From: a virus
Direction: 5' to 3' (one strand)
IMG/VR virus record: IMGVR_UViG_3300029787_000039
Location: 25,694-59,154 of that record
Length of the DNA stretch: 33,461 nt
Shown here: positions 16,322-33,385 of the stretch, one piece after another
Layout of the letters: every line of letters starts with the position of its first letter
How positions within the stretch are numbered: position 1 is the first letter of the stretch
The notes under the pieces: model-generated
Seen by the model: the letters and a program-made list of their open reading frames with translations, nothing else
Databases searched by the model: none
What the model was told of the DNA's origin: nothing
Translations under genes and position numbers: made by a program

Positions 16322-16712
16322 TGTTCACCCTATTGCTCCCCAACCGTTTAAAATTAACTTTATTTGGTAATCCTAATTCTTTTCTTAGGTTATCCAATCT
16401 CTTAATTGCAATACGTGTACCACCAAAAGGACATATCACATCTATCAACCAAAGGTTATCTCCACTGTTCCAATCGTGTGGTTGAATCTTTCTTGTTTTA
16501 TTTTTATAACCTTCTTCAGCTTCTTCTGGTAACATTGCCCAACTTGCATAACAGAGTGGAACTTCTTTATCCACATATATTCTATATTGATTTAACCTTA
16601 GTGGTGGTATAACCAATCGCTGTATATCTTTTATAGTAAAGTTCTCATGTTTAACAGACAATGAAAATATAAATAATACCTTTTCTAAATCACTTTGATA
16701 ATCGTGCTGCAA
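16305..16712 (-). CDS. HlyC-family toxin-activating lysine acyltransferase
   Basis: The frame shows the HlyC signature in order: S-x-x-H (SLSVKHENF), IPPLRLNQYRIYVDKEVPLCYASWAML, then PHDWNSGDNLWLIDVICPFGG. In HlyC the S-x-x-H His and the Asp of SGD are catalytic, and both are present with similar spacing. HlyC transfers a fatty acyl group from acyl-ACP to internal lysines of RTX toxins. I prefer the TTG at 16712 (His becomes residue 22, as in HlyC His23, with AGAAGAG upstream); a TTG at 16757 would add 15 residues and a 68-bp overlap. No RTX toxin is in view, so the substrate may be a phage protein. Located between holin-like and 614-aa genes. Confidence 0.8.
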   Translation of the reverse strand: MQHDYQSDLEKVLFIFSLSVKHENFTIKDIQRLVIPPLRLNQYRIYVDKEVPLCYASWAMLPEEAEEGYKNKTRKIQPHDWNSGDNLWLIDVICPFGGTRIAIKRLDNLRKELGLPNKVNFKRLGSNRVNNVERI

Positions 16713-16983
16713 TAATCTCTTCTGCCTTTGGTAGTAATCTAATTCCACAGTATCCAATCATGAATGCTATGGCTGGACCCCAAGTCACGTCTAAAGCCCA
16801 ATGTTTCATTATGGGTGGTATAAACCATTCTGCGGCTATCCACCCTACTATAATTGCTAGACCAACATCTTTAATAGCAGTCCAGTTAAAATTCTTTTTT
16901 GTTAATACATTTGTTGCACCACCCACACCGCTTGATAAAATACAACAAGTTTTAGCTCCCAGAGTTTGAATTAACCATTCCAT
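16690..16983 (-). CDS. Holin-like small membrane protein
   Basis: I choose ATG at 16983 (MEWLIQTLGAKTCCILSSG, 97 aa) because GGAGGAACATC lies directly upstream. Two strong membrane segments (VGLAIIVGWIAAEWFIPPI and WGPAIAFMIGYCGIRLL) follow a weaker Gly-rich one (CCILSSGVGGATNVL), and the C-terminus is charged. Size, topology and a position next to the terminase gene fit a phage holin, which makes lesions in the inner membrane for lysis. The endolysin is far away at 24.7 kb on the other strand. Late promoter A drives it. Confidence 0.7.
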   Translation of the reverse strand: MEWLIQTLGAKTCCILSSGVGGATNVLTKKNFNWTAIKDVGLAIIVGWIAAEWFIPPIMKHWALDVTWGPAIAFMIGYCGIRLLPKAEEIIAARLSK

Positions 16984-17034: not shown

Positions 17035-18573
17035 TTAAAATGTCCAATAGGTACTTCTTTGTTCTTTTGTTTCCTCTTCCCATTCAGGATCGTCAGGATG
17101 CATTAGGTGCCATGATTCTTTCATATAGTGTATAGCCATTGTCATAGCATCTACCTGATCATCATGGGCAGCATTGGGGAAACGTATTAATTCCTCTATT
17201 AATTCATCGGACCATTTCTTATTAACAGGTATCCATAATCTCCCTGCTTCTATAATAGGAGAAGCTGCGTACACTCTGGATACCTTATCTCTATCAGGAT
17301 TATATTCCATGACAGGAAGCCCTGCCCTTCTCATATCCTGTATTAATGATTGACCACTGGCCTTCTTCTCTATCATACATACATCAGGTCTATACTGATT
17401 GTATAACTTCTGTGCCATTTTCCTTAATTCAGGATACTCAAACCTGCCCCGAATGTTTCCTAGTAAGATAAGATGAGAAACAAAATCCTCTATACCTATC
17501 TTATCTTGATTATACATGGAGAATATACCCCATGTTTGTATTACGCTATAATCTGCTGTTGTGGCTGTAGAAAAAGCTGTGTCATACGTTTGTATTACAA
17601 AATCACAGCTAGGTGGTTCTTCATATGTCCATTCTTTTAGCCACCTTTTCTTTATTAATCCCCCTTCTTCTGGTGTAGGGTCTTGCATGTACAGTGCATT
17701 CCAGTATCGGCTACCATTACTGGCTTTAATCTCGTTCTCATCCGTTCTTAGTATCTCATCCGTCTTCCATTCTGGAAAATAACTGGAACCTACAGGAAGA
17801 TCTAGCAATTCTGCAGCATCTTCGTCCACCCATGCAGGGATTTTTATAACTTCCCAAGGAATTGTTTCAAATTCACTCATATTCTCCTGTTGTTTTAATA
17901 ACCATCCACACAAATCATCATAATGATACCGTGTATTAATTATTACTATAGCTCCGTTAGGCATAATACGTGTACGTAAGCCAGCAGGATACCATTCTTT
18001 AATGTATTTACGTCCTGATGCACTAATTGCATCCTCTTCAGACATAACATCATCAAGTATTGCTATATGTGCGCCTCTACCTGCTATCTGTGAACGTACA
18101 CCTGCAGCATAATACGTACCATTCTGGTTTGTTTTCCATTTACCAGCGGCTCTAACATCACTTCTTAAAGATACTCCTTTAAATATCTTTTGAAATTCTT
18201 CTGTATTAACAACATCCCTTACAGATCTACCAAAATCACTAGATAATTGATCACTATGGGAGACAGTTAGTATCTCATGTTCAGGATTCCTACCAATATA
18301 CCAAGCAGGAAACAACTTAGAGCAGATAACAGACTTAGAAGAACGTGGTGGCAAGAACACCATTAACCTTCTTATCTTTCCTTCCTCTAAATCTTTTAAC
18401 TTATTTGATATAACTTCTATATGACGACCCATTCTCCAATCAGATACAAGCATAGGAGCCATCATCCTAACAAAAGTTAGGAAATCAGTCTTTGATTGTT
18501 CGTTAACCTTTTGAGATAACAAACCTTGAAGGTTAATATATGGATCAAGTAGAGTTTCTTGTAAACTATTCAT
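17035..18573 (-). CDS. Terminase large subunit
   Basis: The protein (512 aa from ATG at 18573; a GTG at 18588 would add five) has an N-terminal ATPase with Walker A-like LPPRSSKSV (about residues 73-81) and Walker B IAILDDVM, then motif III-like VIINTRYHYDD. The C-terminal nuclease has acidic residues in VIQTYDTAFS, VCMIEKKAS and AAHDDQVDAM. It cuts and pumps phage DNA into the procapsid through the portal. A small terminase subunit is not recognisable in the window. It is the first gene of the late leftward operon, facing the control region. Confidence 0.9.
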   Translation of the reverse strand: MNSLQETLLDPYINLQGLLSQKVNEQSKTDFLTFVRMMAPMLVSDWRMGRHIEVISNKLKDLEEGKIRRLMVFLPPRSSKSVICSKLFPAWYIGRNPEHEILTVSHSDQLSSDFGRSVRDVVNTEEFQKIFKGVSLRSDVRAAGKWKTNQNGTYYAAGVRSQIAGRGAHIAILDDVMSEEDAISASGRKYIKEWYPAGLRTRIMPNGAIVIINTRYHYDDLCGWLLKQQENMSEFETIPWEVIKIPAWVDEDAAELLDLPVGSSYFPEWKTDEILRTDENEIKASNGSRYWNALYMQDPTPEEGGLIKKRWLKEWTYEEPPSCDFVIQTYDTAFSTATTADYSVIQTWGIFSMYNQDKIGIEDFVSHLILLGNIRGRFEYPELRKMAQKLYNQYRPDVCMIEKKASGQSLIQDMRRAGLPVMEYNPDRDKVSRVYAASPIIEAGRLWIPVNKKWSDELIEELIRFPNAAHDDQVDAMTMAIHYMKESWHLMHPDDPEWEEETKEQRSTYWTF

Positions 18574-18634
18574 AGTACTATTATACACTATAAATACTAA
18601 TACTAGAAATAAATAATAATAATATAATATAATT

Positions 18635-18692
18635 AGTACTTTAGTAAAGTACTAGTACTATACTAAGGTACTACTTTAGTAAAGTACTAGTA
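18635..18692. repeat. Two direct copies of a palindromic 20-bp element
   Basis: ACTTTAGTAAAGTACTAGTA occurs at 18638-18657 and again at 18673-18692, 35 bp apart, about three and a third DNA turns. Each copy contains the near-palindrome ACTTTA-G-TAAAGT, and the first extends to AGTACTTTA-G-TAAAGTACT (18635-18653). This looks like a tandem operator, lying about 50-110 bp upstream of the terminase gene. Confidence 0.65.
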
Positions 18693-18942
18693 TCAGCCGA
18701 TGGGTTGATGACAAGTCCGAGTATTTTTGAAAATATTTGAGAGTCCTAATATAATATATGGGATGACCCTCCGGGTTTTTTGGGTGGGGTAGTCATTATA
18801 TATTGTGCGGCATGGGATCACCTTTTCAATGGATACCTTATTCTTTCAATTTGGGGATATTTTGGGAATGTGGATTATGGCCGTTCTTTTATCATCCAGA
18901 AAAGGTATAGAATGGTAGTTATAACTCAGCTATTCCTCTAAT

Positions 18943-18962
18943 CTTGTGAAAATTTTCACAAG
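18943..18962. promoter_or_regulatory. CRP-like palindrome, copy 1
   Basis: A perfect 20-bp palindrome CTTGTGAAAATTTTCACAAG. Its core TGTGA-AAATTT-TCACA equals the CRP/FNR-family consensus TGTGA-N6-TCACA. Its centre is about 90 bp upstream of the predicted start of the first early promoter. Confidence 0.7.
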
Positions 18963-19007
18963 TTTATATAGCTATTTCAATAACTTATAAAATAGTTAAA
19001 TAAATGC

Positions 19008-19036
19008 TTGTCATTATATGAGAATAAGCCGATAAT
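19008..19036 (+). promoter_or_regulatory. Early promoter P1 (TTGTCA-N17-GATAAT)
   Basis: TTGTCA at 19008-19013 and GATAAT at 19031-19036 with 17-bp spacing. The predicted start is near 19043, about 42 nt before the ATG at 19085. An inverted repeat GTCATCA-ATGA-TGATGAC begins right at the start site. Confidence 0.6.
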
Positions 19037-19043
19037 CCTATCT

Positions 19044-19061
19044 GTCATCAATGATGATGAC
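19044..19061. promoter_or_regulatory. Operator-like inverted repeat at the P1 start
   Basis: GTCATCA (19044-19050), four bases ATGA, then TGATGAC (19055-19061): perfect 7-bp arms. It begins one base after the predicted start of P1, the usual place for a repressor operator. As RNA it could also form a 5' hairpin. Confidence 0.5.
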
Positions 19062-19084
19062 GTTAAAACAAGGATATGATTATT

Positions 19085-19678
19085 ATGACTAACACTACAG
19101 AAGACATTCAAACCGAAGACTTGAACAAGGTTGAATTGATCAATCAATATTTCAATAGCCGAAAAGAAATGTTGAAGGGTGAAGTACCGTTCTACTTATC
19201 AGCCTACAAGGTAATGGGTGAGGCAATGAAAAAGGCCAAGGTAACCGTCTTTAATAAAAAGGCGCAAGAATACCTCAAAAAAGAATACGGGGTAGAATTG
19301 TTTGAGGGTTTCCCCGAAGATATCCGAAGGCAGCACGTATCATATGCGAATTTTGTTGGCAAAAACCCCAAAGAGTGCGAGAAGGTAGCCAAGGAAACCG
19401 GAAAGGCAATTTCTGGGGTTGTTGGGGCTGTTAAAAAGAAAGACAAAAAAGAACCAGCCGAAAAGGTTGAAAATAAAAAACCAGCCAAAGACTTAACCGA
19501 AAAGGACATGGTATCGCAATTGATAGAAATGCGAATGTACTGCCAGTTAAAGAAATGGGATTTTGAGGCATTGGTGCAGTTATCGGCACAAGATACCAAG
19601 AAAACCCTAGCCACCTTAATACAGAAGGACGGTATACAGGAAACTGTTGAAAATGTGAAAGAGAAGGTAGCGGCATAG
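19085..19678 (+). CDS. First early protein, 197 aa, unknown
   Basis: I choose ATG at 19085 (MTNTTEDIQTEDLNKVELI) since AAGGA lies about 10 nt upstream; the ATG at 19076 is too close to it. The N-terminal half is helical (NSRKEMLKGEVPFYLSAYKVM, AQEYLKKEYGVELFEGFPEDI). A Lys/Glu/Pro-rich linker (KKKDKKEPAEKVENKKPAKD) follows, then a helical C-terminal domain (MVSQLIEMRMYCQLKKWDFEAL). Higher GC and different codon use from later early genes. It is the first gene of the rightward transcript, with its own promoter and operator-like element, so a host-takeover or regulatory role is plausible. No domain recognised. Confidence 0.75.
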   Translation: MTNTTEDIQTEDLNKVELINQYFNSRKEMLKGEVPFYLSAYKVMGEAMKKAKVTVFNKKAQEYLKKEYGVELFEGFPEDIRRQHVSYANFVGKNPKECEKVAKETGKAISGVVGAVKKKDKKEPAEKVENKKPAKDLTEKDMVSQLIEMRMYCQLKKWDFEALVQLSAQDTKKTLATLIQKDGIQETVENVKEKVAA

Positions 19679-19688
19679 GGTAGGGGTT

Positions 19689-19720
19689 GGGGGGTATAAA
19701 AGCCCCCCTATACCTTTGTT
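19689..19720 (+). terminator. Probable terminator after first early gene
   Basis: GGGGGG (19689-19694) and CCCCCC (19703-19708) close a short A/T loop TATAAAAG; the following TATACCTTTGTTT is only partly U-rich. Placed 10 bp after a stop codon and directly before the next promoter, it probably ends the first early transcript. Confidence 0.55.
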
Positions 19721-19748
19721 TGACTTGGGTATGGTCATATATTATGAT
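19720..19748 (+). promoter_or_regulatory. Early promoter P2 (TTGACT-N17-TATGAT)
   Basis: TTGACT at 19720-19725 and TATGAT at 19743-19748 with 17-bp spacing. The -10 overlaps the palindrome ATGATCAT (19744-19751), a possible small operator. The start near 19755 precedes an AAGGAAGGAAGG ribosome site. Confidence 0.65.
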
Positions 19749-19779
19749 CATATCTAAGTTAAAGGAAGGAAGGTAAGAT

Positions 19780-19848
19780 ATGATAGTTTACCAATTCACG
19801 ACAAGTTTAGTTCTAATTTATTTAATAGGCGCAACCATATTAGGGTGA
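19780..19848 (+). CDS. 22-aa hydrophobic peptide
   Basis: ATG at 19780 to TGA at 19846-19848 encodes a single hydrophobic helix, MIVYQFTTSLVLIYLIGATI plus LG. A very strong purine site (AAGGAAGGAAGG) stands about 7 nt before the ATG, the stop is 4 nt before the next start, and promoter P2 lies directly upstream. I infer a translated membrane micropeptide. Alternatively it is a leader whose translation opens the next gene. Confidence 0.5.
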   Translation: MIVYQFTTSLVLIYLIGATILG

Positions 19849-19852
19849 CATA

Positions 19853-20047
19853 ATGGAAAACGTATACACATTTTTGGGCTTCCTTGTGTTGGTCATTGTT
19901 GGCTGGTTTATGATACTATCCGGCATGGCCTACGGTTTAAGTTTCGCAAGCTATGGCTGGCCAGCCTATGGTGTAGCTGGTGGCCTTGCCGCTATTGGCG
20001 TAGTCTTAAACTGTTTAGCTATTAAGGTATTGTGCTTAAACTTGTGA
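19853..20047 (+). CDS. 64-aa two-pass membrane protein
   Basis: Nearly the whole protein is hydrophobic: a first segment FLGFLVLVIVGWFMILSGMAY and a second AYGVAGGLAAIGVVLNCLAI, joined by a short aromatic loop. It follows the 22-aa peptide in the same short P2 transcript. The stop codon TGA lies inside CRP-like palindrome copy 2, whose first bases encode the last Leu. Early membrane proteins of this kind may alter host membrane processes or exclude other phages; nothing specific is recognised. Confidence 0.65.
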   Translation: MENVYTFLGFLVLVIVGWFMILSGMAYGLSFASYGWPAYGVAGGLAAIGVVLNCLAIKVLCLNL

Positions 20048-20060
20048 AAATTTTCACAAG
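20041..20060. promoter_or_regulatory. CRP-like palindrome, copy 2
   Basis: Perfect CTTGTGAAAATTTTCACAAG. It contains the stop codon of the upstream gene and ends two bases before the -35 of promoter P3. Its centre is about 47 bp upstream of the predicted P3 start, near the position of class II CRP activator sites. Confidence 0.7.
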
Positions 20061-20062
20061 AT

Positions 20063-20091
20063 TTGACAACGTAAAAGGATTATATTAGTAT
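20063..20091 (+). promoter_or_regulatory. Promoter P3 for the structured RNA (TTGACA-N17-TAGTAT)
   Basis: TTGACA at 20063-20068 and TAGTAT at 20086-20091 with 17-bp spacing. The predicted start, about 20098, is the first base of the 20-bp outer stem of the structured RNA. Confidence 0.65.
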
Positions 20092-20097
20092 CTATTT

Positions 20098-20244
20098 AAC
20101 TGCTTACCTATGGGAAGTCATGGCGAGCGAATGTTACAGGCCAACGAAAGCACTAGTGGCTGGAGGTTTTACACACTGTAACAAGGTAGAGTGTAGCTAC
20201 CTAGCGTGAGGTTCGATTCCTTGCCTTCCCATACGTAAGTAGTT
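20098..20244 (+). ncRNA. Structured RNA with tRNA-like 3' half (candidate)
   Basis: An outer stem pairs AACTGCTTACCTATGGGAAG (20098-20117) with 20225-20244, with one mismatch and one G-U over 20 bp. Inside are GTTACAG/CTGTAAC (20133-20139 with 20176-20182), AGGTAG/CTACCT with a 7-nt loop (20184-20202), a 4-nt linker, and a T-arm-like hairpin TGAGG-TTCGATT-CCTTG (20207-20223). The last two arms mimic the anticodon and T arms of a tRNA, but the part replacing the D-arm is over 60 nt and U33 is absent, so it is not an ordinary tRNA. Promoter P3 predicts a start exactly at the stem. No long reading frame. It may be a regulatory or decoy RNA; the function is unknown. Confidence 0.6.
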
Positions 20245-20428
20245 AAGAGCTTGGTTCCACTAAGGCGTGGTCATCTATTACAATGCCGCACAAGTAATAG
20301 GGGAAGAGAATAAACTAAGGCGGCACATTGCCTTGCGTTTAGTGAATGCATACACTAAAAGGCAACCATAGCTCCCTAGTATGTTGTGGTATGATGTACT
20401 AGGGAGCGTCTAAATATATGAGGTACAC
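20245..20428 (+). promoter_or_regulatory. Hairpin-rich leader before the 20429 gene
   Basis: Further helices follow the structured RNA: CCAC/GTGG (20257-20270); CTATTAC/GTAATAG (20275-20300), whose loop TGCCGC can pair with GCGGCA at 20320-20325 as a pseudoknot; a long hairpin TTGCCT..TTTAGTG/CACTAAA.AGGCAA (20328-20365); and a perfect 11-bp hairpin GCTCCCTAGTA/TACTAGGGAGC (20371-20407). No U-run follows the last one. This may be part of one larger RNA or a 5' leader controlling the gene at 20429. Confidence 0.5.
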
Positions 20429-20764
20429 ATGGCAAAGAAACAACGCCACCACTGGCAAACAAATAATAGTGGACACTATCCCAACATGAGAAATTCATCT
20501 ACTGATGTTGAGATACTACACGACAGTAACCGTGGACGCATGGTGCATGACCACATGGTATCCGTTAGCAATCAACAACAAATTGATGAGTACAACAAAC
20601 AAGAAGAACTCAGACAATTTGCAAAAGATATCTGGGACAGTAAATCTTGTGAAAATTTTCACAAAAAAGAACCTGATATAGAGTGGACCCTAGATCCCGA
20701 TGAGTACATAACCCTTGATGGAGTAAAATACTATGAGATTATGGACAAAATGGAGGCGATGTAA
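20429..20764 (+). CDS. Early protein, 111 aa, unknown
   Basis: Hydrophilic, His/Asn/Asp-rich product: a basic start (MAKKQRHHWQTNNSGHYPN), a central helix (NQQQIDEYNKQEELRQFAKDI) and an acidic end (EWTLDPDEYITLDG). CRP-like palindrome copy 3 lies inside the gene and encodes SCENFHK, so the element is tolerated within a coding frame. No family recognised. It ends in a TAATG overlap with the next small gene. Confidence 0.65.
   Translation: MAKKQRHHWQTNNSGHYPNMRNSSTDVEILHDSNRGRMVHDHMVSVSNQQQIDEYNKQEELRQFAKDIWDSKSCENFHKKEPDIEWTLDPDEYITLDGVKYYEIMDKMEAM
20646..20664. promoter_or_regulatory. CRP-like palindrome, copy 3 (inside a gene)
   Basis: CTTGTGAAAATTTTCACAA, with the full 18-bp core TTGTGAAAATTTTCACAA at 20647-20664. 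It lies within the reading frame 20429-20764, about 100 bp before the next gene start. Confidence 0.65.
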
Positions 20765-20919
20765 TGAGTGATAGAACAGTACAGGTAGAAGGTTGGGAGC
20801 AACTCAATTGGTTAATAAAAAGATTTAATTATGATGTCGAACACGCCATAGATACTATGGTTAAGCATAACCAAGACATGTCTTTTCTACGGGATAAGAT
20901 AGATGACTTGGTTAATTAA
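20764..20919 (+). CDS. 51-aa helical protein, unknown
   Basis: ATG at 20764 overlaps the previous stop (TAATG) and runs to TAA at 20917-20919. The product reads MSDRTVQVEGWEQLNWLIK, then YDVEHAIDTMVKHNQDMSFL and ends DKIDDLVN: a probable helical hairpin. Coupling and composition support translation. No function recognised. Confidence 0.6.
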   Translation: MSDRTVQVEGWEQLNWLIKRFNYDVEHAIDTMVKHNQDMSFLRDKIDDLVN

Positions 20920-21076
20920 GGTAGAGTGTGTTAACTGTGACACTAGTGGTTGCATATACTGTGACAACAAACACCTAATCATACATACACAGTCAGGTAA
21001 TTATAATATTGACAACGTAACAGAAGATTACGATAATGTCTTATCAATAACGTGGCAAGAACCAATGGGGTATTAA
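20903..21076 (+). CDS. 57-aa zinc-ribbon-like protein
   Basis: ATG at 20903 overlaps the end of the previous gene by 17 bp. Residues about 9-20 give ECVNCDTSGCIYC, two CxxC pairs six residues apart, a compact zinc knuckle. The rest is hydrophilic (HTQSGNYNIDNVTEDYDN). It ends 1 nt before the Gp88-like gene. Promoter P4 lies inside its 3' half. Confidence 0.55.
   Translation: MTWLIKVECVNCDTSGCIYCDNKHLIIHTQSGNYNIDNVTEDYDNVLSITWQEPMGY
21009..21037 (+). promoter_or_regulatory. Promoter P4 (TTGACA-N17-GATAAT)
   Basis: TTGACA at 21009-21014 and GATAAT at 21032-21037 with 17-bp spacing. TTGACAACGTAA matches the start of P3. The predicted start near 21044 lies 34 nt before the Gp88-like gene. Confidence 0.6.
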
Positions 21077-21077
21077 T

Positions 21078-21716
21078 ATGCTAGTAAAAGAAGCACTACA
21101 ATTTGGCAGAGTATCTAAGGGCAATACCAAAATGCCGGGAACTACCTTCGCCATCGACGCCTTTGCCTGTAACGTAGGCAGTAAACTGGCAGAGATTGAA
21201 GGGACACCATGTCATGACTGCTATGCCCGTAAGCTACAAAAGCTACGGCCTAGTGTGGACAAGGGGTGGAAGGCTAACCTTGTTAAATGGCAACAGTCAG
21301 ACAAGTCTTTGTGGGTTACGTCTATGGTGTTTCAGATTAAACGCTACAACGTAGATAACTATCATCGTTGGTTTGATAGTGGTGATCTACAATCGGTGGA
21401 GATGTTACACAACATCGTAGACGTGGCCTTACTAACGCCAGAAATTCAACACTGGCTACCTACGCAAGAACGTGCCATAGTTAAACAATATCGTAAGCAG
21501 TACGGAATGGAGCCGGATAACCTTACCATTCGGGTATCGGCCTCAGAGGTAGACACGGATACCATTCCTAACTTCGAATGTACATCAAGAGTATTTACCA
21601 AGAAGGGTAATCCACTAGGTAAAGAGTGCAAGGCAAGAACAAGAGGCAACCAATGTGGATCATGTCGAGCTTGCTGGTCTAAGGACGTACCAGTTATATC
21701 ATATCCTAAACATTAA
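21078..21716 (+). CDS. Gp88-family protein
   Basis: The 212-aa product has the pattern of the phage Gene product 88 family: KMPGTTFAIDAFACNVGSKLA, then GTPCHDCYARK, WFDSGDLQSVEMLHNIVDVAL, TPEIQHWLPTQE and a C-terminal Cys cluster (NQCGSCRACWSKD). The cysteines (CHDCYA and CGSCRAC) suggest a metal or Fe-S site. The family is widespread in phages of actinobacteria and other hosts and its role is not established. It has its own promoter P4 and is less AT-rich than the small genes that follow. Confidence 0.75.
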   Translation: MLVKEALQFGRVSKGNTKMPGTTFAIDAFACNVGSKLAEIEGTPCHDCYARKLQKLRPSVDKGWKANLVKWQQSDKSLWVTSMVFQIKRYNVDNYHRWFDSGDLQSVEMLHNIVDVALLTPEIQHWLPTQERAIVKQYRKQYGMEPDNLTIRVSASEVDTDTIPNFECTSRVFTKKGNPLGKECKARTRGNQCGSCRACWSKDVPVISYPKH

Positions 21717-21723
21717 TAAGAGC

Positions 21724-21752
21724 TTGACATGATCTACATAGGGATATATAAC
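21724..21752 (+). promoter_or_regulatory. Promoter P5 (TTGACA-N17-TATAAC)
   Basis: TTGACA at 21724-21729 and TATAAC at 21747-21752 with 17-bp spacing, directly after the Gp88-like gene. The start near 21759 precedes the small gene at 21784. Confidence 0.65.
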
Positions 21753-21783
21753 TATTTTAATTATTAAATGATAGGAGAATAAA

Positions 21784-21903
21784 ATGACTGACCAAGAAAT
21801 AAAAGATTTGTTTGATGAAAATTTAAACTTAACACTCAGGGAGTTGTCAAATATTAGTGGTAAAAGTGTGGAAGAATTAAAAAATATTTTAATGGGGAAT
21901 TAA
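21784..21903 (+). CDS. 39-aa acidic helical protein, unknown
   Basis: ATG at 21784 follows an excellent GATAGGAGAATAAA site and runs to TAA at 21901-21903. The product has DQEIKDLFDENLNLTLRELSN, then SGKSVEELKNILMGN, suggesting two or three short helices of a helix-turn-helix size (LTLRELSNISGKSVEELKNIL). A small transcription-related protein is possible. Promoter P5 drives it. Confidence 0.6.
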   Translation: MTDQEIKDLFDENLNLTLRELSNISGKSVEELKNILMGN

Positions 21904-21926
21904 GAATAAGTGAGATTGTTTTAAAA

Positions 21927-21945
21927 CTTGTGAAAATTTTCACAA
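21927..21945. promoter_or_regulatory. CRP-like palindrome, copy 4
   Basis: CTTGTGAAAATTTTCACAA, full 18-bp core at 21928-21945, in the gap between two genes, 7 bp before a GGAG ribosome site. No promoter is visible between it and the next gene. Confidence 0.65.
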
Positions 21946-21961
21946 AATTATGGAGAATTAT

Positions 21962-22222
21962 ATGTTAACAGTTAAAAAAAATAAACCTTGGTTACGTGTT
22001 AAACCTTTGAATGATGGCACCAAGGGCTATCGCCTTTCCTGTAAGGTTGAATTGTTTGGTCATGTCGTAATAGCACTCACCGTGATCTATCGTAAGCGTA
22101 AGCACAAGTTAAACAATGGCTTTACCTCTGGTACATCAACCTTTGGTATTCATAGAGGACTACGCTCAATATATTTTGAGAAGTCATCAACGGCTCGACC
22201 CTTCTGGGGATTGGCTGGTTAA
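21962..22222 (+). CDS. 86-aa basic protein, unknown
   Basis: I choose ATG at 21962 (MLTVKKNKPWLRVKPLND) because TGGAGAATTAT lies directly upstream; the ATG at 21950 has no site and overlaps it. The product is basic and beta-rich (RLSCKVELFGHVVIALTVIYRKRKHK) with a Gly/Ser-rich end. Its start lies about 16 bp after CRP-like palindrome copy 4. No family recognised. Confidence 0.6.
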   Translation: MLTVKKNKPWLRVKPLNDGTKGYRLSCKVELFGHVVIALTVIYRKRKHKLNNGFTSGTSTFGIHRGLRSIYFEKSSTARPFWGLAG

Positions 22223-22238
22223 CATAAGGATTTAAAAT

Positions 22239-22439
22239 ATGATTGACTATGATAAACTAAAACCATTGGGTGAATGGATGACCCAAAGAGAATGGGAAAC
22301 TATAATGGAGTATACCTATGACAGGCTTCCCGTATGGTACTTCAATCAATGGGAACGTGATGCCGCTTACAAAAATTATATCAAAGGTAAGGAACAAACA
22401 TTAAGTGACTATCACGAAGCAGTAGAAGAAAGAAAATGA
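22239..22439 (+). CDS. 66-aa aromatic-rich protein, unknown
   Basis: Preceded by AAGGATTTAAAAT. The product has many Trp and Tyr: LGEWMTQREWETIMEYTYDRL, then VWYFNQWERDAAYKNYIKGK. It ends in an ATGA overlap with the next gene. Composition suggests a small folded domain. No function known. Confidence 0.65.
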   Translation: MIDYDKLKPLGEWMTQREWETIMEYTYDRLPVWYFNQWERDAAYKNYIKGKEQTLSDYHEAVEERK

Positions 22440-22606
22440 AAGCTAAACAAAGAGATGTGTGGGTGCGACACTATGACCTACATAAGTTAGCCAATCACCC
22501 TGCTAACATAGCTACCGATTGGATTAAAGAATGGACATGGTATCAGTATCCGGCAGAGTTTCAGAAGCTGGCGATTAAATTGTTATTAAGAATTGAAGGA
22601 GAATGA
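22436..22606 (+). CDS. 56-aa protein, unknown
   Basis: ATG at 22436 overlaps the previous stop (ATGA). The product reads KQRDVWVRHYDLHKLANHPAN, then IATDWIKEWTWYQYPAEF and a helical end KLAIKLLLRIEGE. The Trp-rich centre resembles its upstream neighbour in composition only. Its 3' end supplies AAGGAGAATGA, the ribosome site for the next gene. Confidence 0.6.
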   Translation: MKAKQRDVWVRHYDLHKLANHPANIATDWIKEWTWYQYPAEFQKLAIKLLLRIEGE

Positions 22607-22609
22607 CTA

Positions 22610-22741
22610 ATGTTAATACTTGTAAAATTAACCTTAAAAGATGATACACATGATGCAAAAATAAAGACTATAGAGGAAGTTGACTATAGTTTTAATCATG
22701 ATAATATAGTTTGTACAGAGATTGTTGAGGAGATAGACTAA
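22610..22741 (+). CDS. 43-aa beta-type peptide, unknown
   Basis: ATG at 22610 follows AAGGAGAATGACTA and ends at TAA 22739-22741, overlapping the next ATG (TAATG). The product (MLILVKLTLKDDTHDAKIK, VCTEIVEEID at the end) suggests a short beta-alpha-beta fold. Good start signals and coupling support it; no family recognised. Confidence 0.55.
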   Translation: MLILVKLTLKDDTHDAKIKTIEEVDYSFNHDNIVCTEIVEEID

Positions 22742-22842
22742 TGTTTAACAACCCTTTAACTGGATACATAATATGTCTTGGTATTGTAGTAGCTGTTTTA
22801 GTATTGGTATATTTAAAAGCAACTGGGTTCACTATAGGATAG
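22741..22842 (+). CDS. 33-aa single-pass membrane peptide
   Basis: ATG at 22741 is joined by TAATG to the previous gene. The product has one membrane segment, GYIICLGIVVAVLVLVYL, between short polar ends. It is too short for a known holin class and may be an early host-membrane-directed peptide. The stop is 10 bp before the HNH-like gene. Confidence 0.55.
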   Translation: MFNNPLTGYIICLGIVVAVLVLVYLKATGFTIG

Positions 22843-22852
22843 GAGTTGACCA

Positions 22853-23359
22853 ATGGCTTGGGTAGATAAAGATAAGGAAAGAAAATGGAAAAAAGAATAT
22901 AAAAGAAAACGATACCAAGATGATCCTGAGTTTAGAGAAAAAGAAAAAGCCAGAAGAAGAAAGTATCATGCCACACACCCTGAACAAAGAAAGGCCCAAG
23001 CTACGAGATGGAAAGAAAAAAGTAGTGTATTAGGTTCGGATGCTTTCTTTACAGATAGATTGAGTACTCTAAGAGTGAGAGCAAAAGAAAAAAGTTTTGA
23101 TTTTAACTTGACTAAGCAGTACCTTAAAGATATATATCCTAAAGATAATAAGTGTCCTGCATTAGGAATAGAATTTAAAGTAGGAACTGAAGGGGGTAGA
23201 GCAACCTCTCCTAGCGTTGACCGAATTGATAATTCAAAAGGTTATATAAAAGGTAATGTAATTTGGGTATCCTCTTTAGCTAATATGATTATGACATCAG
23301 CCACACCTCAACAAGTCCTAGATGTAGGAAAGTTTTTTAAAAATCAAATGGAAAAATAA
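22853..23359 (+). CDS. HNH-like endonuclease
   Basis: The 168-aa product has a very basic N-terminal third (about residues 7-60: WKKEYKRKRYQ, KEKARRRKYHATH) and a C-terminal nuclease-like domain: CPALGIEF, then SPSVDRIDNSKGYIKGNVIWV and VSSLANMIMTSATPQQVLDV. The S-V-D-R-I-D...GY..GNV.WVS pattern is typical of phage HNH/treble-clef homing-type nucleases, in which the DRI segment carries metal-site residues. A second Cys for a zinc knuckle is not evident. It is probably a free-standing mobile endonuclease, or a DNA-processing enzyme. Confidence 0.7.
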   Translation: MAWVDKDKERKWKKEYKRKRYQDDPEFREKEKARRRKYHATHPEQRKAQATRWKEKSSVLGSDAFFTDRLSTLRVRAKEKSFDFNLTKQYLKDIYPKDNKCPALGIEFKVGTEGGRATSPSVDRIDNSKGYIKGNVIWVSSLANMIMTSATPQQVLDVGKFFKNQMEK

Positions 23360-23369
23360 GGAAAAGATA

Positions 23370-23684
23370 ATGAGTAATGAAGAAGACCTATGGAAAGACT
23401 ATAAATGGAAAGACTATAAACGTCACTCAAATATATCATTTGCTATTGAAGGATTAGGATTAGACGGAATTGTAGGTGATATAATCTTTGAAGAAGTTGA
23501 TAATATTATTGACAAATATAACTTGACACATAAAGACATTGAAAGATATAAAGAAAATCGGAGCAGTCTTTATGATGAAACTGGAAAAATGTCTGATCCT
23601 TTTTGTGTGGTAGAAACATTTATTGTTAACAGGTTAACTAATGAACTCTATGAAAGGGAAGATCGTGAGCAATATACACAATGA
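23370..23684 (+). CDS. 104-aa acidic protein, unknown
   Basis: Preceded by AAGGAAAAGATA. The N-terminus carries a tandem KDYKWKDYKRH motif, followed by an acidic helical body (LDGIVGDIIFEEVDNIIDKYN, KMSDPFCVVETFIVNRLTNEL). No domain recognised. A TTGACA-N18-TATAAA match lies within it (23523-23552) and might serve downstream genes, but it could be chance in AT-rich DNA. Confidence 0.6.
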   Translation: MSNEEDLWKDYKWKDYKRHSNISFAIEGLGLDGIVGDIIFEEVDNIIDKYNLTHKDIERYKENRSSLYDETGKMSDPFCVVETFIVNRLTNELYEREDREQYTQ

Positions 23685-23817
23685 TGCCATCAAAGAATTG
23701 TTATTTGAAGCAGCAATGACTGAAGCAATAGAAGGAGGTGCGCCTGATAACGAAGAGACAGAGTTAAAGGCTGCTAAGTTAGTGGAATTTTTATGGGAGA
23801 ATTATAGAGATGAGTAA
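23665..23817 (+). CDS. 50-aa acidic protein, start uncertain
   Basis: The frame is open from ATG 23641 (58 aa) to TAA 23815-23817. I prefer GTG at 23665 because AAGGGAAGATC precedes it; ATG codons at 23641 and 23650 lack a site. The product has VSNIHNDAIKELLFEAAMTEA, then NEETELKAAKLVEFLWENYRDE, mostly acidic helices. It overlaps the previous gene end and, by 8 bp, the next gene start. Confidence 0.5.
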   Translation: MSNIHNDAIKELLFEAAMTEAIEGGAPDNEETELKAAKLVEFLWENYRDE

Positions 23818-24172
23818 CATACACCCAAGCCTAGAAAAATTACCCAAGAGCCATAGGCTACACCCTGACAAGGTGAAAGAATGGATCAAGGTTAATTCAG
23901 ACATGCTCGTATCTATCCGTAAAGATGTACGACAGAATGTGAAAGGTTCTCTTGCTAAACAAACAGACATCGAAGGGTACATCAGAAATATGCGTAAGTA
24001 TTTAAAAGATGGTGATTGGATTGATATGTTTTATGGTGTAGCACAAGAGGGTAAGATAATGCCAAAGTGTGTAGCTATGGCATACAACAGTGACGGCACA
24101 GCTAAACGTGACGTTGGAACTTGGTATCCAGATATGGGTATCTATACAAAGGAGATGAGAGATGACGAATAA
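23810..24172 (+). CDS. 120-aa protein, unknown
   Basis: A soluble product with a basic helical N-terminus (HPDKVKEWIKVNSDMLVSIRK, DIEGYIRNMRKYLKDGDW) and a beta-rich C-terminus (FYGVAQEGKIMPKCVAMAYN, VGTWYPDMGIYTK). No catalytic motif is recognised. It overlaps the next gene by 11 bp. Its place within the small-gene run suggests an accessory early function. Confidence 0.65.
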   Translation: MSNIHPSLEKLPKSHRLHPDKVKEWIKVNSDMLVSIRKDVRQNVKGSLAKQTDIEGYIRNMRKYLKDGDWIDMFYGVAQEGKIMPKCVAMAYNSDGTAKRDVGTWYPDMGIYTKEMRDDE

Positions 24173-24446
24173 GAATCCATTTGGTAAAAGTACGACACAA
24201 GATAAGCCCTATGCTGTATATAAGAATGACTTTGGTTGGGAGTGGCGGGTATTAAAAACATACCAACGGCCTGACAAAGAACCAAGCAATCAGTATGCAC
24301 GGTGGTTTGTTGCGGCTACCTCACCACACATGCACGATGGCGGCTATGAACTAGGTGATACCTACATTGCTGACATAATGGGGCCAGCCCAAGGCTACCT
24401 CTTATCAGCCACTGATGAATGGAAGGAACACTATAAAGATGTCTAA
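24162..24446 (+). CDS. 94-aa protein, unknown
   Basis: The product reads NPFGKSTTQDKPYAVYKNDFG, WEWRVLKTYQRPDKEPSNQY, then ARWFVAATSPHMHDGGYELGD and ends in DEWKEHYKDV. The pattern of aromatic residues and the GWEWRVLKTYQ core suggest a small beta domain, often seen among phage hypothetical genes. It overlaps both neighbours (11 bp upstream, 8 bp downstream). Confidence 0.65.
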   Translation: MTNKNPFGKSTTQDKPYAVYKNDFGWEWRVLKTYQRPDKEPSNQYARWFVAATSPHMHDGGYELGDTYIADIMGPAQGYLLSATDEWKEHYKDV

Positions 24447-24699
24447 TAATTCTATATGTTTTGTTGAGAAAGAGTTACCCAACAAAGACAAACTTATTAT
24501 TCAGTTAAACTACATACTGAATAACAGTAAAATACTTTCAACAATTACCACATTCATTGTGTACGCTAACAGTACCCTTGTAAAAGATATGTGTTTTATA
24601 TTTAAGTACGATAAGAAGTTGACACCTGAAGAAGGATATGATATATCTATAGAACATTATAATAAAATACTAAAAGAAGAACATAGTTATTTGGAGTAG
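24439..24699 (+). CDS. 86-aa protein, unknown
   Basis: I choose ATG at 24439 (MSNNSICFVEKELPNKDKL), overlapping the previous stop by 8 bp; a longer frame from 24415 is contained in the upstream gene. The product is alternately beta and helical (LIIQLNYILNNSKILSTITTF, YDISIEHYNKILKEE). No family recognised. A promoter-like sequence for the endolysin lies in its 3' part. Confidence 0.6.
   Translation: MSNNSICFVEKELPNKDKLIIQLNYILNNSKILSTITTFIVYANSTLVKDMCFIFKYDKKLTPEEGYDISIEHYNKILKEEHSYLE
24619..24647 (+). promoter_or_regulatory. Possible endolysin promoter (TTGACA-N17-TATATC)
   Basis: TTGACA at 24619-24624 and TATATC at 24642-24647 with 17-bp spacing, inside the preceding gene. The predicted start near 24654 is 50 nt before the endolysin ATG. 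The -10 matches only four of six bases. Confidence 0.4.
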
Positions 24700-24703
24700 A
24701 GTA

Positions 24704-25174
24704 ATGAGAATATTAATAACAGTAATACTATCATTGTTAATAACATCTAAAGTATATGGTGATACTAATAAGAGATGTCTTGCTGAAGCTGTGTACTTTG
24801 AAGCTAGAGATCAAGGGTGGAATGGTATGCTTGCTGTTGGTGTTGTTATACAAAACAGAGTAAGGGATAAGAAGTATCCTGATAATATATGTGGAGTTGT
24901 TAAACAAGGTAAGTATTGGCGTGGCAATCCTGTTCGTAATGCTTGTCAATTCTCTTACTACTGTGATGGTAAGTCAGAGAAACCATTTGAAACTGAAGCA
25001 TGGTACATAGCCGTAGAGATTGCAAAACTTCTTACTTCAACAGAAGTAAAAGTAAAAGGATTGGAAGAAGCTACACACTACCATGCGGTATGGACAAATC
25101 CTTTCTGGTCTAAGTATCTGGAAAGATGTAAACAAATAGGATCTCATGTGTTTTATAAACGTAGAAAGTTGTGA
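24704..25174 (+). CDS. Endolysin: SleB-type cell wall hydrolase
   Basis: The 156-aa protein starts with a signal-like or anchor helix (MRILITVILSLLITSKVYG), followed by the hydrolase_2/SleB core: CLAEAVYFEARDQGWNGMLAV, GVVIQNRVRDKKYPDNICGVV, then NACQFSYYCDG and HYHAVWTNPFW. Glu33 in YFEAR matches the catalytic Glu of SleB, a peptidoglycan lytic transglycosylase. The N-terminal helix suggests export through the host Sec system, either cleaved or as a SAR anchor. Unusually it lies among early rightward genes, away from the holin-like gene. Its stop codon is inside CRP-like palindrome copy 5. Confidence 0.85.
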   Translation: MRILITVILSLLITSKVYGDTNKRCLAEAVYFEARDQGWNGMLAVGVVIQNRVRDKKYPDNICGVVKQGKYWRGNPVRNACQFSYYCDGKSEKPFETEAWYIAVEIAKLLTSTEVKVKGLEEATHYHAVWTNPFWSKYLERCKQIGSHVFYKRRKL

Positions 25175-25187
25175 AAATTTTCACAAG
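25169..25187. promoter_or_regulatory. CRP-like palindrome, copy 5
   Basis: TTGTGAAAATTTTCACAAG, with the 18-bp core at 25169-25186. As in copy 2, TTGTGA supplies the last Leu codon and the TGA stop of the upstream gene. The next gene starts 15 bp downstream. Confidence 0.65.
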
Positions 25188-25201
25188 ATTGGAAATGAAA
25201 G

Positions 25202-25444
25202 ATGTCTGATAAATTAAAAACCATATCACCACACTTCAATAATGTGGGTGAAGTTAAAAGTTTTTTAGCAGGGGATTCAGACTTATGGTTAAAGTCTATT
25301 GTCGAAGGATACTTTGATATGTTCGGTCCCAACGTAAAAGCTGATGATGAATTTATACAAGAACTAAATGAGTTTTTAGACTACGAATTAAATTCTTTTC
25401 AAGAAGGGTATAAGGAGTACGCCGATGGAAATACCAACCTTTAA
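25202..25444 (+). CDS. 80-aa acidic protein, possible paralogue of next gene
   Basis: Acidic, helical product: NNVGEVKSFLAGDSDLWLKSI, VEGYFDMFGPNVKADDEF, then ELNEFLDYELNSFQEGYKEY. The order V..F.....S..W....E......NV....F......EN resembles the neighbouring 65-aa protein, suggesting an old tandem duplication. Preceded by GGAAATGAAAG. It overlaps the next gene by 20 bp. Function unknown. Confidence 0.6.
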   Translation: MSDKLKTISPHFNNVGEVKSFLAGDSDLWLKSIVEGYFDMFGPNVKADDEFIQELNEFLDYELNSFQEGYKEYADGNTNL

Positions 25445-25622
25445 ATCTATGCAAGACGTTAGAAATTTTGTACACTTTGGGCCACACCCTACATCAATGT
25501 CAGATAGCTGGTGCTATACAATGCTTGAGTATTGCATCGACAACTCTTCTAACGTGGAGGATGTAAATAAATTTGTTATTGATGAGATAAATATATACGA
25601 GGATTATGATGCAGTCATTTGA
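25425..25622 (+). CDS. 65-aa acidic protein, possible paralogue of previous gene
   Basis: Reads MEIPTFKSMQDVRNFVHFG, then SDSWCYTMLEYCIDNSSNVED and NKFVIDEINIYEDYD. The positions of V, F, W, E and NV match those of the preceding 80-aa protein. The ribosome site AAGGAGTACGCCG lies inside the upstream gene. It overlaps the following gene by 17 bp. Function unknown. Confidence 0.6.
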   Translation: MEIPTFKSMQDVRNFVHFGPHPTSMSDSWCYTMLEYCIDNSSNVEDVNKFVIDEINIYEDYDAVI

Positions 25623-25836
25623 TAAGTTCAGCACTACCTTAGATTTCTTAATGGATCTCAATGCTTTTTTAAGTGAACAAGAAGAGCTTGGAATAAAATT
25701 TAGTTACACATATAGAGGAGATCAAGATGAAGATAGAGCATGGGTAGACCTTGAAGTATGGGTTGATGATGAATGGGATGGGGACGTTGTAAGTCTCTTC
25801 GATCTTGAAAAATCTGACCCAACAGAGGAAAGCTAA
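25606..25836 (+). CDS. 76-aa acidic protein, unknown
   Basis: Two adjacent ATGs (25606 and 25609) follow GAGGATT; either may be used. The product has FDKFSTTLDFLMDLNAFLSEQ, then a beta-rich acidic part with RGDQDEDRAWVDLEVWVDDEW. No family recognised. Its stop overlaps the next start (TAATG). Confidence 0.6.
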   Translation: MMQSFDKFSTTLDFLMDLNAFLSEQEELGIKFSYTYRGDQDEDRAWVDLEVWVDDEWDGDVVSLFDLEKSDPTEES

Positions 25837-25895
25837 TGGTTACTTTTATAATCATATCTCTTGTCATAAATGTTATTTTGTTAATTACAGAATAA
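25836..25895 (+). CDS. 19-aa hydrophobic peptide
   Basis: ATG at 25836 overlaps the preceding stop; AGAGGAAAGCTA is a good ribosome site. The entire product is MVTFIIISLVINVILLITE, a single membrane helix. It is a third very small membrane peptide in the early region. It could be non-functional, but its start signals are as good as those of longer neighbours. Confidence 0.4.
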   Translation: MVTFIIISLVINVILLITE

Positions 25896-25899
25896 ACAT

Positions 25900-25928
25900 T
25901 TGAGTACTGATTGAAAGTGTGGTATAAT
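25900..25928 (+). promoter_or_regulatory. Promoter P7 (TTGAGT-N17-TATAAT)
   Basis: TTGAGT at 25900-25905 and a perfect TATAAT at 25923-25928 with 17-bp spacing, in the only clear gap of this stretch. The predicted start near 25935 is 25 nt before the ATG at 25960. Confidence 0.65.
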
Positions 25929-25959
25929 TAAATACATACCAATTGTAAGGGAGATGTGT

Positions 25960-26166
25960 ATGTACATTATAACCCAAGGGGCATCAACATTTAGGAAAGA
26001 TATAAGCTTGAAATCATTTGATATTCTTACTGATGAGGTAGGCTTACCTCTTAAATTTGCTTCAGAAGGAGAGGCTTGGTCTTTCCTAGAAAGCATAGCA
26101 CGGGGAACCGATTGGGATCTAGAAGTATTACATGATGGGGAGATAAGAGTTGACCATTTACACTAA
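25960..26166 (+). CDS. 68-aa protein, unknown
   Basis: I choose ATG at 25960 (MYIITQGASTFRKDISLKS) because GGGAGATGTGT precedes it at normal spacing; an ATG at 25954 touches the site. The product has FDILTDEVGLPLKFASEGEAW, then LESIARGTDWDLEVLHDGEI. First gene after promoter P7. No family recognised. Confidence 0.6.
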   Translation: MYIITQGASTFRKDISLKSFDILTDEVGLPLKFASEGEAWSFLESIARGTDWDLEVLHDGEIRVDHLH

Positions 26167-26341
26167 AGAACGTGTGTATCATCAGTCGATAGAGTTGCTT
26201 AAAAAACAACTGACAGATGCTAACGAAACCATACGTCAATTAAGACGTGAACTTTCTGTTGCTAAGAAAGATAACAGTTACAGGGATGATAAATCATGGG
26301 CAGAATTAGATATGGAAGATTATCATGGGAGAAGTAATTAA
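26150..26341 (+). CDS. 63-aa coiled-coil protein with TTG start
   Basis: The frame begins at TTG 26150, about 7 nt after GGGGAG, inside the end of the previous gene. A Leu-spaced helix (HQSIELLKKQLTDANETIRQL, RRELSVAKKD) predicts a short coiled coil, followed by an acidic end. No in-frame ATG precedes the helix, so the TTG start is likely. Function unknown. Confidence 0.55.
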   Translation: MTIYTKERVYHQSIELLKKQLTDANETIRQLRRELSVAKKDNSYRDDKSWAELDMEDYHGRSN

Positions 26342-26489
26342 GTTTTATCCTAAGTGGAAAGAGCGACAAGAAAAGATACGTAGATCATTAGGATTGCCAG
26401 CCGACTTATATTACTTTATGTATGACAACGGTTATGATCCTAGTAATGCAAAAGATTTAGAAGATTTTATAGAGGATATGAAGCTATGA
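26325..26489 (+). CDS. 54-aa protein, unknown
   Basis: ATG at 26325 overlaps the previous gene by 17 bp and ends in an ATGA overlap with the next. The product reads MGEVIKFYPKWKERQEKIRRS, then LPADLYYFMYDNGYDPSNAKD and LEDFIEDMKL. Chained overlaps support translation. No domain recognised. Confidence 0.6.
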   Translation: MGEVIKFYPKWKERQEKIRRSLGLPADLYYFMYDNGYDPSNAKDLEDFIEDMKL

Positions 26490-26671
26490 CTAAGAACTTA
26501 TGGCAAAGGGAACGCCAAGCCATGTTTCGTGAATTGGTTCGCCAGTATCAAGATGAAGGTTACAATACAAAAGAAGCTAAGAAGTACGCCAAGCAGGAGA
26601 TAAATGAAATCATGGAGGATAAAGAAAGTTTTGTACAAGAACTTTGGGAACAAACCTACGAAGATACATAA
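26486..26671 (+). CDS. 61-aa helical charged protein, unknown
   Basis: Almost entirely predicted helix with Arg/Glu/Lys: RERQAMFRELVRQYQDEGYN, TKEAKKYAKQEINEIMEDKES. ATGA overlap with the upstream gene. The pattern fits a small DNA- or protein-binding helical bundle, but no specific family is recognised. Confidence 0.65.
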   Translation: MTKNLWQRERQAMFRELVRQYQDEGYNTKEAKKYAKQEINEIMEDKESFVQELWEQTYEDT

Positions 26672-26682
26672 GGATTAATACA

Positions 26683-26967
26683 ATGAATTTACCTAAAGAC
26701 TTTTGTGAATGGCTGTTCAATATAATGGGCATTTCATTCCCTCAACAAATGGATTGGAAACTTAAACATCAACGATCTCCAAACGAGAGAGAATATAAAA
26801 ATGTTAATCGTTATACAAGGGCAGGGAAGTATGGTAAGTTTATCATGTGTCCTCACTGTCATGCTGATACCCGTGTCTATGGTTTCTCATGGGCTGCTAT
26901 GACCTGTGATAATTGTATGACATCTGTTGATAAAAATGATTGGCTCGTAATTGATTGGAAATATTAA
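26683..26967 (+). CDS. 94-aa zinc-ribbon protein
   Basis: I choose ATG at 26683 (MNLPKDFCEWLFNIMGISF), with AAGGATTAATACA upstream; the longer frame from 26644 overlaps the previous gene. The C-terminal half is a clear zinc ribbon: MCPHCHADTRVYGFSW, then TCDNCMTSVDKNDW, four Cys as CxxC...CxxC. The N-terminal part is basic (KLKHQRSPNEREYKN). It lies just before the primase-helicase gene and may bind nucleic acid. Confidence 0.65.
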   Translation: MNLPKDFCEWLFNIMGISFPQQMDWKLKHQRSPNEREYKNVNRYTRAGKYGKFIMCPHCHADTRVYGFSWAAMTCDNCMTSVDKNDWLVIDWKY

Positions 26968-27161
26968 TGTGGAATATAAAACATATTGATACCAATAACT
27001 TAGTATGTTCTTTTAAATCAAAACGTGAGGCAAAAGAAGAGCTAGACAACAGAAGTAATTTATGTTATATATTAAAAACTAACATCAACAAAACTTACTG
27101 CATCGAAAGGGGAACAAATCATGCAGACAAAAGGTTGGGGCAAGAGAGGCCCATGTCCTAA
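26967..27161 (+). CDS. 64-aa protein, unknown
   Basis: ATG at 26967 overlaps the previous stop (TAATG); a TTG at 26955 would add four residues. The product (IKHIDTNNLVCSFKSKREAKE, NLCYILKTNINKTYCIERG) looks like a small alpha-beta fold. Its last 41 bp overlap the start of the primase-helicase gene, so the two are probably translationally linked. Confidence 0.55.
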   Translation: MWNIKHIDTNNLVCSFKSKREAKEELDNRSNLCYILKTNINKTYCIERGTNHADKRLGQERPMS

Positions 27162-29090: not shown

Positions 29091-29107
29091 CAAAAGGAAA
29101 ATGAAGA

Positions 29108-31206: not shown

Positions 31207-31231
31207 CAAGTGATTACAGTTGTGTTAAAAT
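31203..31231 (+). promoter_or_regulatory. Promoter P8 (TTGACA-N17-TAAAAT)
   Basis: TTGACA at 31203-31208 and TAAAAT at 31226-31231 with 17-bp spacing. The TGA stop of the polymerase is inside the -35. The start near 31238 gives a leader of about 58 nt before the single-strand-binding gene, allowing its separate high expression. Confidence 0.65.
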
Positions 31232-31295
31232 GCTTTTGTTGTAGTAGTAGACAACACGTTATTATCAATCGTTATTAACAAAAGGAGAATTAAGT

Positions 31296-31748: not shown

Positions 31749-31756
31749 TAATAAGA

Positions 31757-33378: not shown

Positions 33379-33385
33379 GGTAAAA

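Follow-up and report, generated by a model that had tools for sequence, protein, structure and literature searches.

We analysed a 33,461-nt stretch of DNA from a marine bacteriophage, referred to here as the window (positions 25,694 to 59,154 of IMG/VR record IMGVR_UViG_3300029787_000039), which carries five identical palindromes and, directly after the first of them, a gene that we call ORF1. The record encodes TerL, TerS, a major head protein, a primase-helicase, a DNA polymerase, a gp2.5-like single-stranded DNA-binding protein, a Cas4-type exonuclease, a ribonucleotide reductase, a holin and an endolysin. Neither this record nor any of nine 53-61 kb relatives yielded a Phage_integrase domain, in a search that did not extend to serine recombinases, partition genes or repressors, and these phages look virulent. 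The nearest cultured TerLs, at about 40% on the amino acid level, are those of Pelagibacter phages HTVC027P/HTVC023P and of phage 023Pt_psg01, where the gene order differs.

The array lies wholly inside the rightward-transcribed early region, which starts past the leftward TerL gene (17035-18588), and is formed by the 18-bp palindrome TTGTGAAAATTTTCACAA, present exactly five times in the 59,154-bp record (Table 1). An original prediction, made from the letters of the window, had described five perfect copies, one of them in a gene and two (copies 2 and 5) containing the upstream stop codon as TTG TGA, with none in the late half, and each of these observations was borne out. Allowing up to three mismatches in the window returns the same five copies and no others, late half included, against a mean of 0.04 and a maximum of 1 in the shuffled window. 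Across the whole record there are five matches with no mismatch, none with one to three and one with four, and the proposed scan of the complete record with the 18-mer at up to two mismatches finds only the five. The half-site TTGTGAAAA does not occur outside the five sites in the record, and at sites 1 and 2 the perfect palindrome extends to 20 bp, with C...G flanks. Nine other viral contigs also contain TTGTGAAAATTTTCACAA, nearly always as one copy, which we take as background. The array and its early-only location are established at the level of sequence. The earlier suggestion of selection on the whole site is supported, and the sites are early-specific and look regulatory.

Sites 2, 4 and 5 fall at gene boundaries and site 3 is intragenic, while sites 1 and 2 adjoin predicted promoters. 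The promoters that had been proposed downstream of copies 1 and 2 do exist as consensus matches (P1 and P2, Table 1), but they are weak predictions, the promoter scan having returned 42 sites where 34 were expected (standard deviation 5.3).

Table 1. Window coordinates of the palindromic sites, ORF1, the predicted promoters and further features.
Feature	Position	Strand	Size or sequence	Context
Site 1	18944..18961		18-bp palindrome, 20 bp with C..G flanks	Intergenic, upstream of ORF1
Site 2	20042..20059			Overlaps stop of ORF 19853-20047; 3 bp upstream of consensus -35 box (20063)
Site 3	20647..20664			Inside 111-aa ORF 20429-20764
Site 4	21928..21945			Intergenic; 4 bp before ATG 21950, start region of ORF 21950-22222
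Site 5	25169..25186			Overlaps stop of SleB-type hydrolase gene (24704-25174); 15 bp before ORF 25202-25444
P1, predicted sigma-70 promoter of ORF1	19008..19036	+	TTGTCA-17-GATAAT	Downstream of site 1; consensus match only
P2, predicted sigma-70 promoter	20063..20091	+	TTGACA-17-TAGTAT	Directly downstream of site 2; consensus match only
ORF1	19085..19678	+	197 aa; alternative start 19076	First gene of the early region, immediately past site 1 and P1; candidate cognate DNA-binding regulator
Near-consensus promoter	18727-18777		TTGAAA-17-TATAAT	Upstream of site 1; terminator-like hairpin and T-run within about 10 bp
GP88 family protein	21078-21716		Cys-rich	PF17338, E 1.9e-19; beside arrays in many relatives, useful neighbour marker
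HlyC-type ORF	16305-16757	-	150 aa	PF02794 (RTX toxin acyltransferase family), E 7.8e-27; an acyltransferase-like protein unexpected at this place, with TerL on one side and structural genes on the other

A non-coding segment that follows site 2 and P2 (20098-20428) folds far better than its shuffles (z -3.5), into a tRNA-like acceptor/T-arm (about 20113-20233) within a long stem, plus a strong terminal hairpin. It contains no tRNA and gave no credible Rfam match (the best, mir-327, has an E of 0.028, far below its cut-off); in a related phage, L116, a tRNA-Trp (3019-3093) lies right beside its counterpart.

Concerted site changes and ORF1 divergence in two sister phages

Two close relatives of the window phage, mostly 95-100% identical, were compared with it, L018 (IMGVR_UViG_3300025128_000592) and, as a third phage, L116. 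L018 is collinear with window positions 17513-33460 and mostly 92-99% identical. Both sisters keep all five sites at orthologous places, yet every one of them is 19 bp long, with the form TTGTGAAA-N3-TTTCACAA; the five centres are AAC, AGT, TTT, ATT and ATT in L018, and AAT, AAT, ATT, ATT and ATT in L116. The expectation of the same positions in related phages thus held for all five sites, with the sequence changed. At site 5, the additional base is the only indel that separates the window from L018 across window positions 22.85-26.95 kb, and the flanking DNA is 93-100% identical, mostly 99-100%. At site 3, which is within a reading frame, the base gained in the sisters is offset by the loss of one in an A-run 3' of the site, restoring the frame. 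If one-base indels arose at the background rate, which we estimate from the alignment as about six others in roughly 7.5 kb, the Poisson probability that five of five sites would gain one base is about 1e-8. The outer flanks of the sites shift as well, being C...G for the most part in the window, whereas in the sisters a T usually stands on the left. The aligned sequences establish that the sites have been altered in place and in concert. A single trans-acting recogniser of all the sites would predict such a change, whereas CRP, a spreading repeat or neutral drift would not.

The gene that changes along with the sites is ORF1. In a gene-by-gene comparison its product is 69-71% identical between the window and the sisters, whereas most other early gene products are 92-100% identical, the exceptions being three small ORFs (83-89%) and one 51-aa ORF that has no match in L018. 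Between L018 and L116, both of which have 19-bp sites, ORF1 is 98% identical. It is the sole strongly diverged gene between the 18-bp and 19-bp site types. In the AlphaFold model of the window protein (pLDDT 62), an N domain made up only of helices is followed by a charged linker and by a short C-terminal part that is also helical. Near the C terminus the window ORF1 has an 11-residue segment missing from the sisters, and our guess is that this segment could set the half-site spacing.

A Pfam scan of most remaining early ORFs disclosed no DNA-binding regulator. The HNH ORF at 22853-23359 was considered for such a role and set aside: its regulator-like PHROG matches are weaker than its endonuclease match.

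Palindrome arrays and ORF1 across the wider phage family

Scans of IMG/VR for ORF1, with single sequences and with profiles, returned near relatives only, and the family was therefore reached through the neighbourhoods of TerL and GP88. A TerL scan gave at least 599 matching stretches, and the 80 relatives that we compared have a TerL 77-99% identical to that of the window; all are uncultivated contigs, and copy numbers in partial contigs are minima. Many relatives share a layout in which ORF1 is bracketed by two to seven copies of a palindrome, built from at least ten other half-sites. The array palindrome is TTCTAGAAATTCTAGAA in L211, L215, L217 and L077, TTTAGTGNCACTAAA in L222 and L229, GGGTAGTACTACCC in L227, TTTACANTGTAAA in L247, TCGGACNGTCCGA in L257, TAGATGCAACGTTGCATCTA in L262, TGTACCTAGGTACA in L268, TCTGGGATNTCCCAGA in L270 and TAGYCCATNNATGGRCTA in L203; TCTGGGANNTCCCAGA is another palindrome of relatives with the same layout and is unrelated to the window word. 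L077 has seven copies of its word in a 61-kb record, all inside a stretch of about 8 kb and with no one-mismatch copy elsewhere, and the 56.7-kb record of L262 has two copies of its own word and no near copy. Among the 15 listed ORF1-bearing phages, a site lies downstream of ORF1 in every one and upstream in 14, none having been detected upstream in L270. The window phage conforms to this layout: its first early gene is of the ORF1 type and has copies of a symmetric site on both sides.

Three or more copies with identical 7-bp arms were found in 10 of 31 early regions, 0 of 26 late regions and no shuffle. Arrays of this strict kind are associated with the gene: they occur in 9 of the 14 phages with an ORF1-type gene and in 1 of the 17 without (Fisher p 0.0012). 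Half-site identity also tracks the similarity of the ORF1 N domain. When 17 ORF1 sequences were compared, all eight pairs with an N-domain similarity above 0.3 (normalised score) had the same half-site, and the 127 pairs below 0.1 had a mean half-site identity of 0.46, a best-match score that has no chance level alongside; over the whole set the two measures are correlated (Mantel r 0.72, p 5e-5). Closeness in TerL does not predict the site, as L203 and L215 have a TerL 88% identical to that of the window and unrelated palindromes.

Two phages found through a GP88 scan bear on this relationship. The strongest case, and an independent one, is L313 with L270, two phages otherwise unrelated. L313 has no blastn similarity to L270, and by tblastx little beyond ORF1 (two short matches), yet the N domains of their ORF1s are 40% identical (7e-19) and the L313 array, CTGGGA-N2/3-TCCCAG, has the L270 half-site, mostly with one extra central base. 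L332 has an ORF1 homologous to those of L211, L215 and L217, and six copies of GCTCTANNTAGAGC. The ORF1 alignments are shallow, too much so for a profile-profile comparison of A1 with A2 to be informative; a pooled profile worked. Built from nine ORF1s without the window family, it had the window ORF1 as its top new match among 3,217 ORFs (E 0.0013), with the ORF1s of L116 and L199 ranking after it. Sequence comparison establishes both the linkage of the arrays to ORF1 and the existence of an ORF1 family.

Repeated words were also seen in other settings. The early regions of L202, L205, L226, L233, L235 and L275, which are without an ORF1-type gene, have GAGTATCTTACGATACTA in common, in two to four copies; this word is conserved between phages, not variable, and is possibly the site of another regulator. 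More early-region arrays, with no clear ORF1 homologue, occur in L244, L246, L266, L251, L252, L258, L273, L315 and L305, with words such as ACTACTACTTAGTAGTAGT, TAGCTTACTCGTAAGCAG, TAGTAACNNNGTTACTA and TAACTACA..TGTAGTTA. Many contigs, among them L088, L090, L097, L102, L114, L120, L130, L132, L135 and L140, have exactly two TTGTGAAA-N5-TTTCACAA sites about 5.9 kb apart; several are apparently isolate genomes, and the pair is a separate conserved arrangement of the same half-site. The 103-kb contig L151 has four TTGTGAAA-N2-TTTCACAA sites within 1.1 kb (2707-3842).

The recogniser of the sites

We consider it probable, from the comparisons above, that a regulator encoded by the phage uses the five palindromes as its operators, and ORF1 is the most likely gene for it. 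The original prediction had raised the idea that the phage carries its own binding protein, which our analysis supports as probable, with the first early gene as the candidate. According to this model, ORF1 would be made first, from P1, and as a dimer would contact the half-sites TTGTGAAA/TTTCACAA through its N-terminal domain, the distance between them (18- versus 19-bp sites) being set by the way in which the two subunits join. It would bind the site upstream of its own gene, resulting in autoregulation, as well as the site downstream, would modulate or shut down early transcription at P1 and P2, and would act in a stoperator-like manner at sites 3-5, at gene boundaries inside the early operon. 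ORF1 specificity and its array would diversify together between phages. Since the combination of promoter and operon-internal sites resembles mycobacteriophage stoperators, we prefer an operator plus roadblock, and infer repression or roadblock rather than activation; the role is perhaps early-gene shut-off. The selective reason may be the avoidance of cross-control by co-infecting relatives.

Several observations weigh against assigning this role to ORF1. Pfam and PHROG scans of ORF1 gave no match and no DNA-binding domain was recognised in it; Foldseek searches of ORF1 models against the PDB and viral models likewise matched nothing, and confidence in the AlphaFold models is modest (pLDDT 62 and 73). 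The positional ORF1s of L222, L247 and L270 are acidic, which is atypical for DNA-binding proteins, and those of L203, L222/229, L227, L247 and L268 are linked to the family by position only, not by sequence. L257 and L262, the next pair in N-domain similarity (0.16), have ORF1s 39% identical and palindromes that differ. The Fisher and Mantel p-values ignore shared ancestry. Finally, sites 1 and 2 are upstream of the predicted promoters and not over them, and could therefore serve in activation instead.

The sites might be bound by some other phage protein, or by a repressor of the host that varies from host to host, with ORF1 merely a linked, fast-evolving accessory gene. This would account for the lack of a recognisable DNA-binding domain and for the acidic ORF1s, but we regard it as unlikely because no gene besides ORF1 differs consistently with site type between the window and L018/L116, and L270 and L313 have in common only ORF1, the half-site and the two short tblastx matches. 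The one possible helix-turn-helix ORF, of 39 aa (21784-21903), is hit by large gaps in L116, yet L116 keeps its sites.

The original prediction had also suggested host cAMP-CRP or another Crp-family regulator, which would tie early transcription to host physiology. The window word is indeed a perfect TGTGA-N6-TCACA, and predicted starts lie about 90 bp past site 1 and about 47 bp past site 2. However, the 6-bp centre of the CRP consensus that is present in the window is absent from the five orthologous sites of L018 and L116, all of which have 7 bp between TGTGA and TCACA, and relatives with the same layout use unrelated palindromes, for example TTCTAGAAATTCTAGAA, TGTACCTAGGTACA and TCTGGGANNTCCCAGA. 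Loose matches to TGTGA-N6-TCACA (up to two mismatches) are not enriched, with 13 against 19.5 expected, and no HTH_Crp domain of a phage-encoded regulator was found in the record. Natural CRP sites within one genome are usually degenerate, whereas the five in the window are identical. Recognition by a host Crp-family protein is, on this evidence, quite improbable.

The repeats might also act as RNA, as a hairpin for an RNA-binding protein or RNase or as a transcription end. Sites 3-5 are at gene boundaries within presumed transcription units, site 1 is called terminator-like by the scan and the 19-bp version has a variable 3-nt centre. The arms are short and A+T-rich, though, and the sequence itself, beyond pairing, is fixed within a genome. 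The centres of the even-spaced arrays are moreover self-complementary (AATT in the window, CTAG in L268, ACGT in L262, GTAC in L227), as a DNA site for a dimer needs and a hairpin loop does not; together with the symmetry of the sites this fits a DNA-bound dimer better than an RNA hairpin, and we find an RNA role very improbable. Least credible of all is that the palindromes have no part in regulation and are a repeat spread recently either as a mobile element, which the original prediction had entertained, or by gene conversion, which could produce identical copies that differ all at once in a near relative: the sites are at orthologous positions in the sisters with highly identical flanks and only the sites changed in place, the five 19-bp sites of L018 differ in their centres and so were not copied by conversion, and other palindromes are at comparable positions in relatives.

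Relation to known operator systems

Regulation by ORF1 at dispersed sites would have a close parallel in the stoperators of Cluster A mycobacteriophages such as L5 and Bxb1. These are many near-identical repressor sites, which lie mostly in short intergenic spaces and in some cases at promoters, with one upstream of the repressor gene. From one phage group to another the site consensus changes along with the repressor, which blocks initiation as well as elongation (PMC6550527, PMC9283540). They are 13-bp, asymmetric, oriented with transcription, bound by a monomer and present at 20-30 per genome in temperate phages (PMC6550527, PMC9283540). The array described here likewise has multiple copies at promoters and short gene boundaries (sites 2, 4 and 5, with site 1 before P1). 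By contrast its sites are symmetric, as all of the arrays are palindromic, number two to seven per genome and are limited to the early region; a search of these phages revealed no tyrosine integrase, and ORF1 is not recognisably related to the stoperator repressor. The system works like a stoperator or heteroimmune operator system, and membership among the stoperators fails on site symmetry.

Lambdoid cI/Cro systems have symmetric operators, clustered at divergent promoters, autoregulation and specificity classes among relatives. Symmetric sites, specificity classes and, as proposed, autoregulation recur here, whereas the sites are single and dispersed over 6-8 kb and no helix-turn-helix repressor was recognised. 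The SAS/ESAS elements of Cluster K mycobacteriophages are reportedly short repeats scattered close to gene starts; ESAS contain inverted repeats, and SAS are asymmetric and conserved cluster-wide. Unlike SAS, the word described here varies from lineage to lineage, and does so together with the first early gene. CRP/FNR-family sites share with the window word the form TGTGA-N6-TCACA, but the relatives keep neither its spacing nor its sequence. Searches of the open-licence literature turned up no description of such arrays from this group of phages.

We give about even weight to a broader proposition, that ORF1 represents an undescribed family of phage transcription factors without known fold match, in apparently virulent phages, whose specificity and half-site spacing diversify as fast as those of immunity repressors, giving many mutually insulated control classes. 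The regulator and its sites come as natural paired variants, including near-identical phages with five one-base spacing changes, and would allow a direct test of how DNA-binding specificity evolves. The analysis also provides a candidate regulator, with its list of targets, for a large group of uncultivated marine phages with early genes that otherwise lack annotation. The findings suggest that repressor-like specificity classes occur outside temperate phages and, if the model is true, would amount to a non-lysogenic counterpart of heteroimmunity, perhaps directed against co-infecting relatives.

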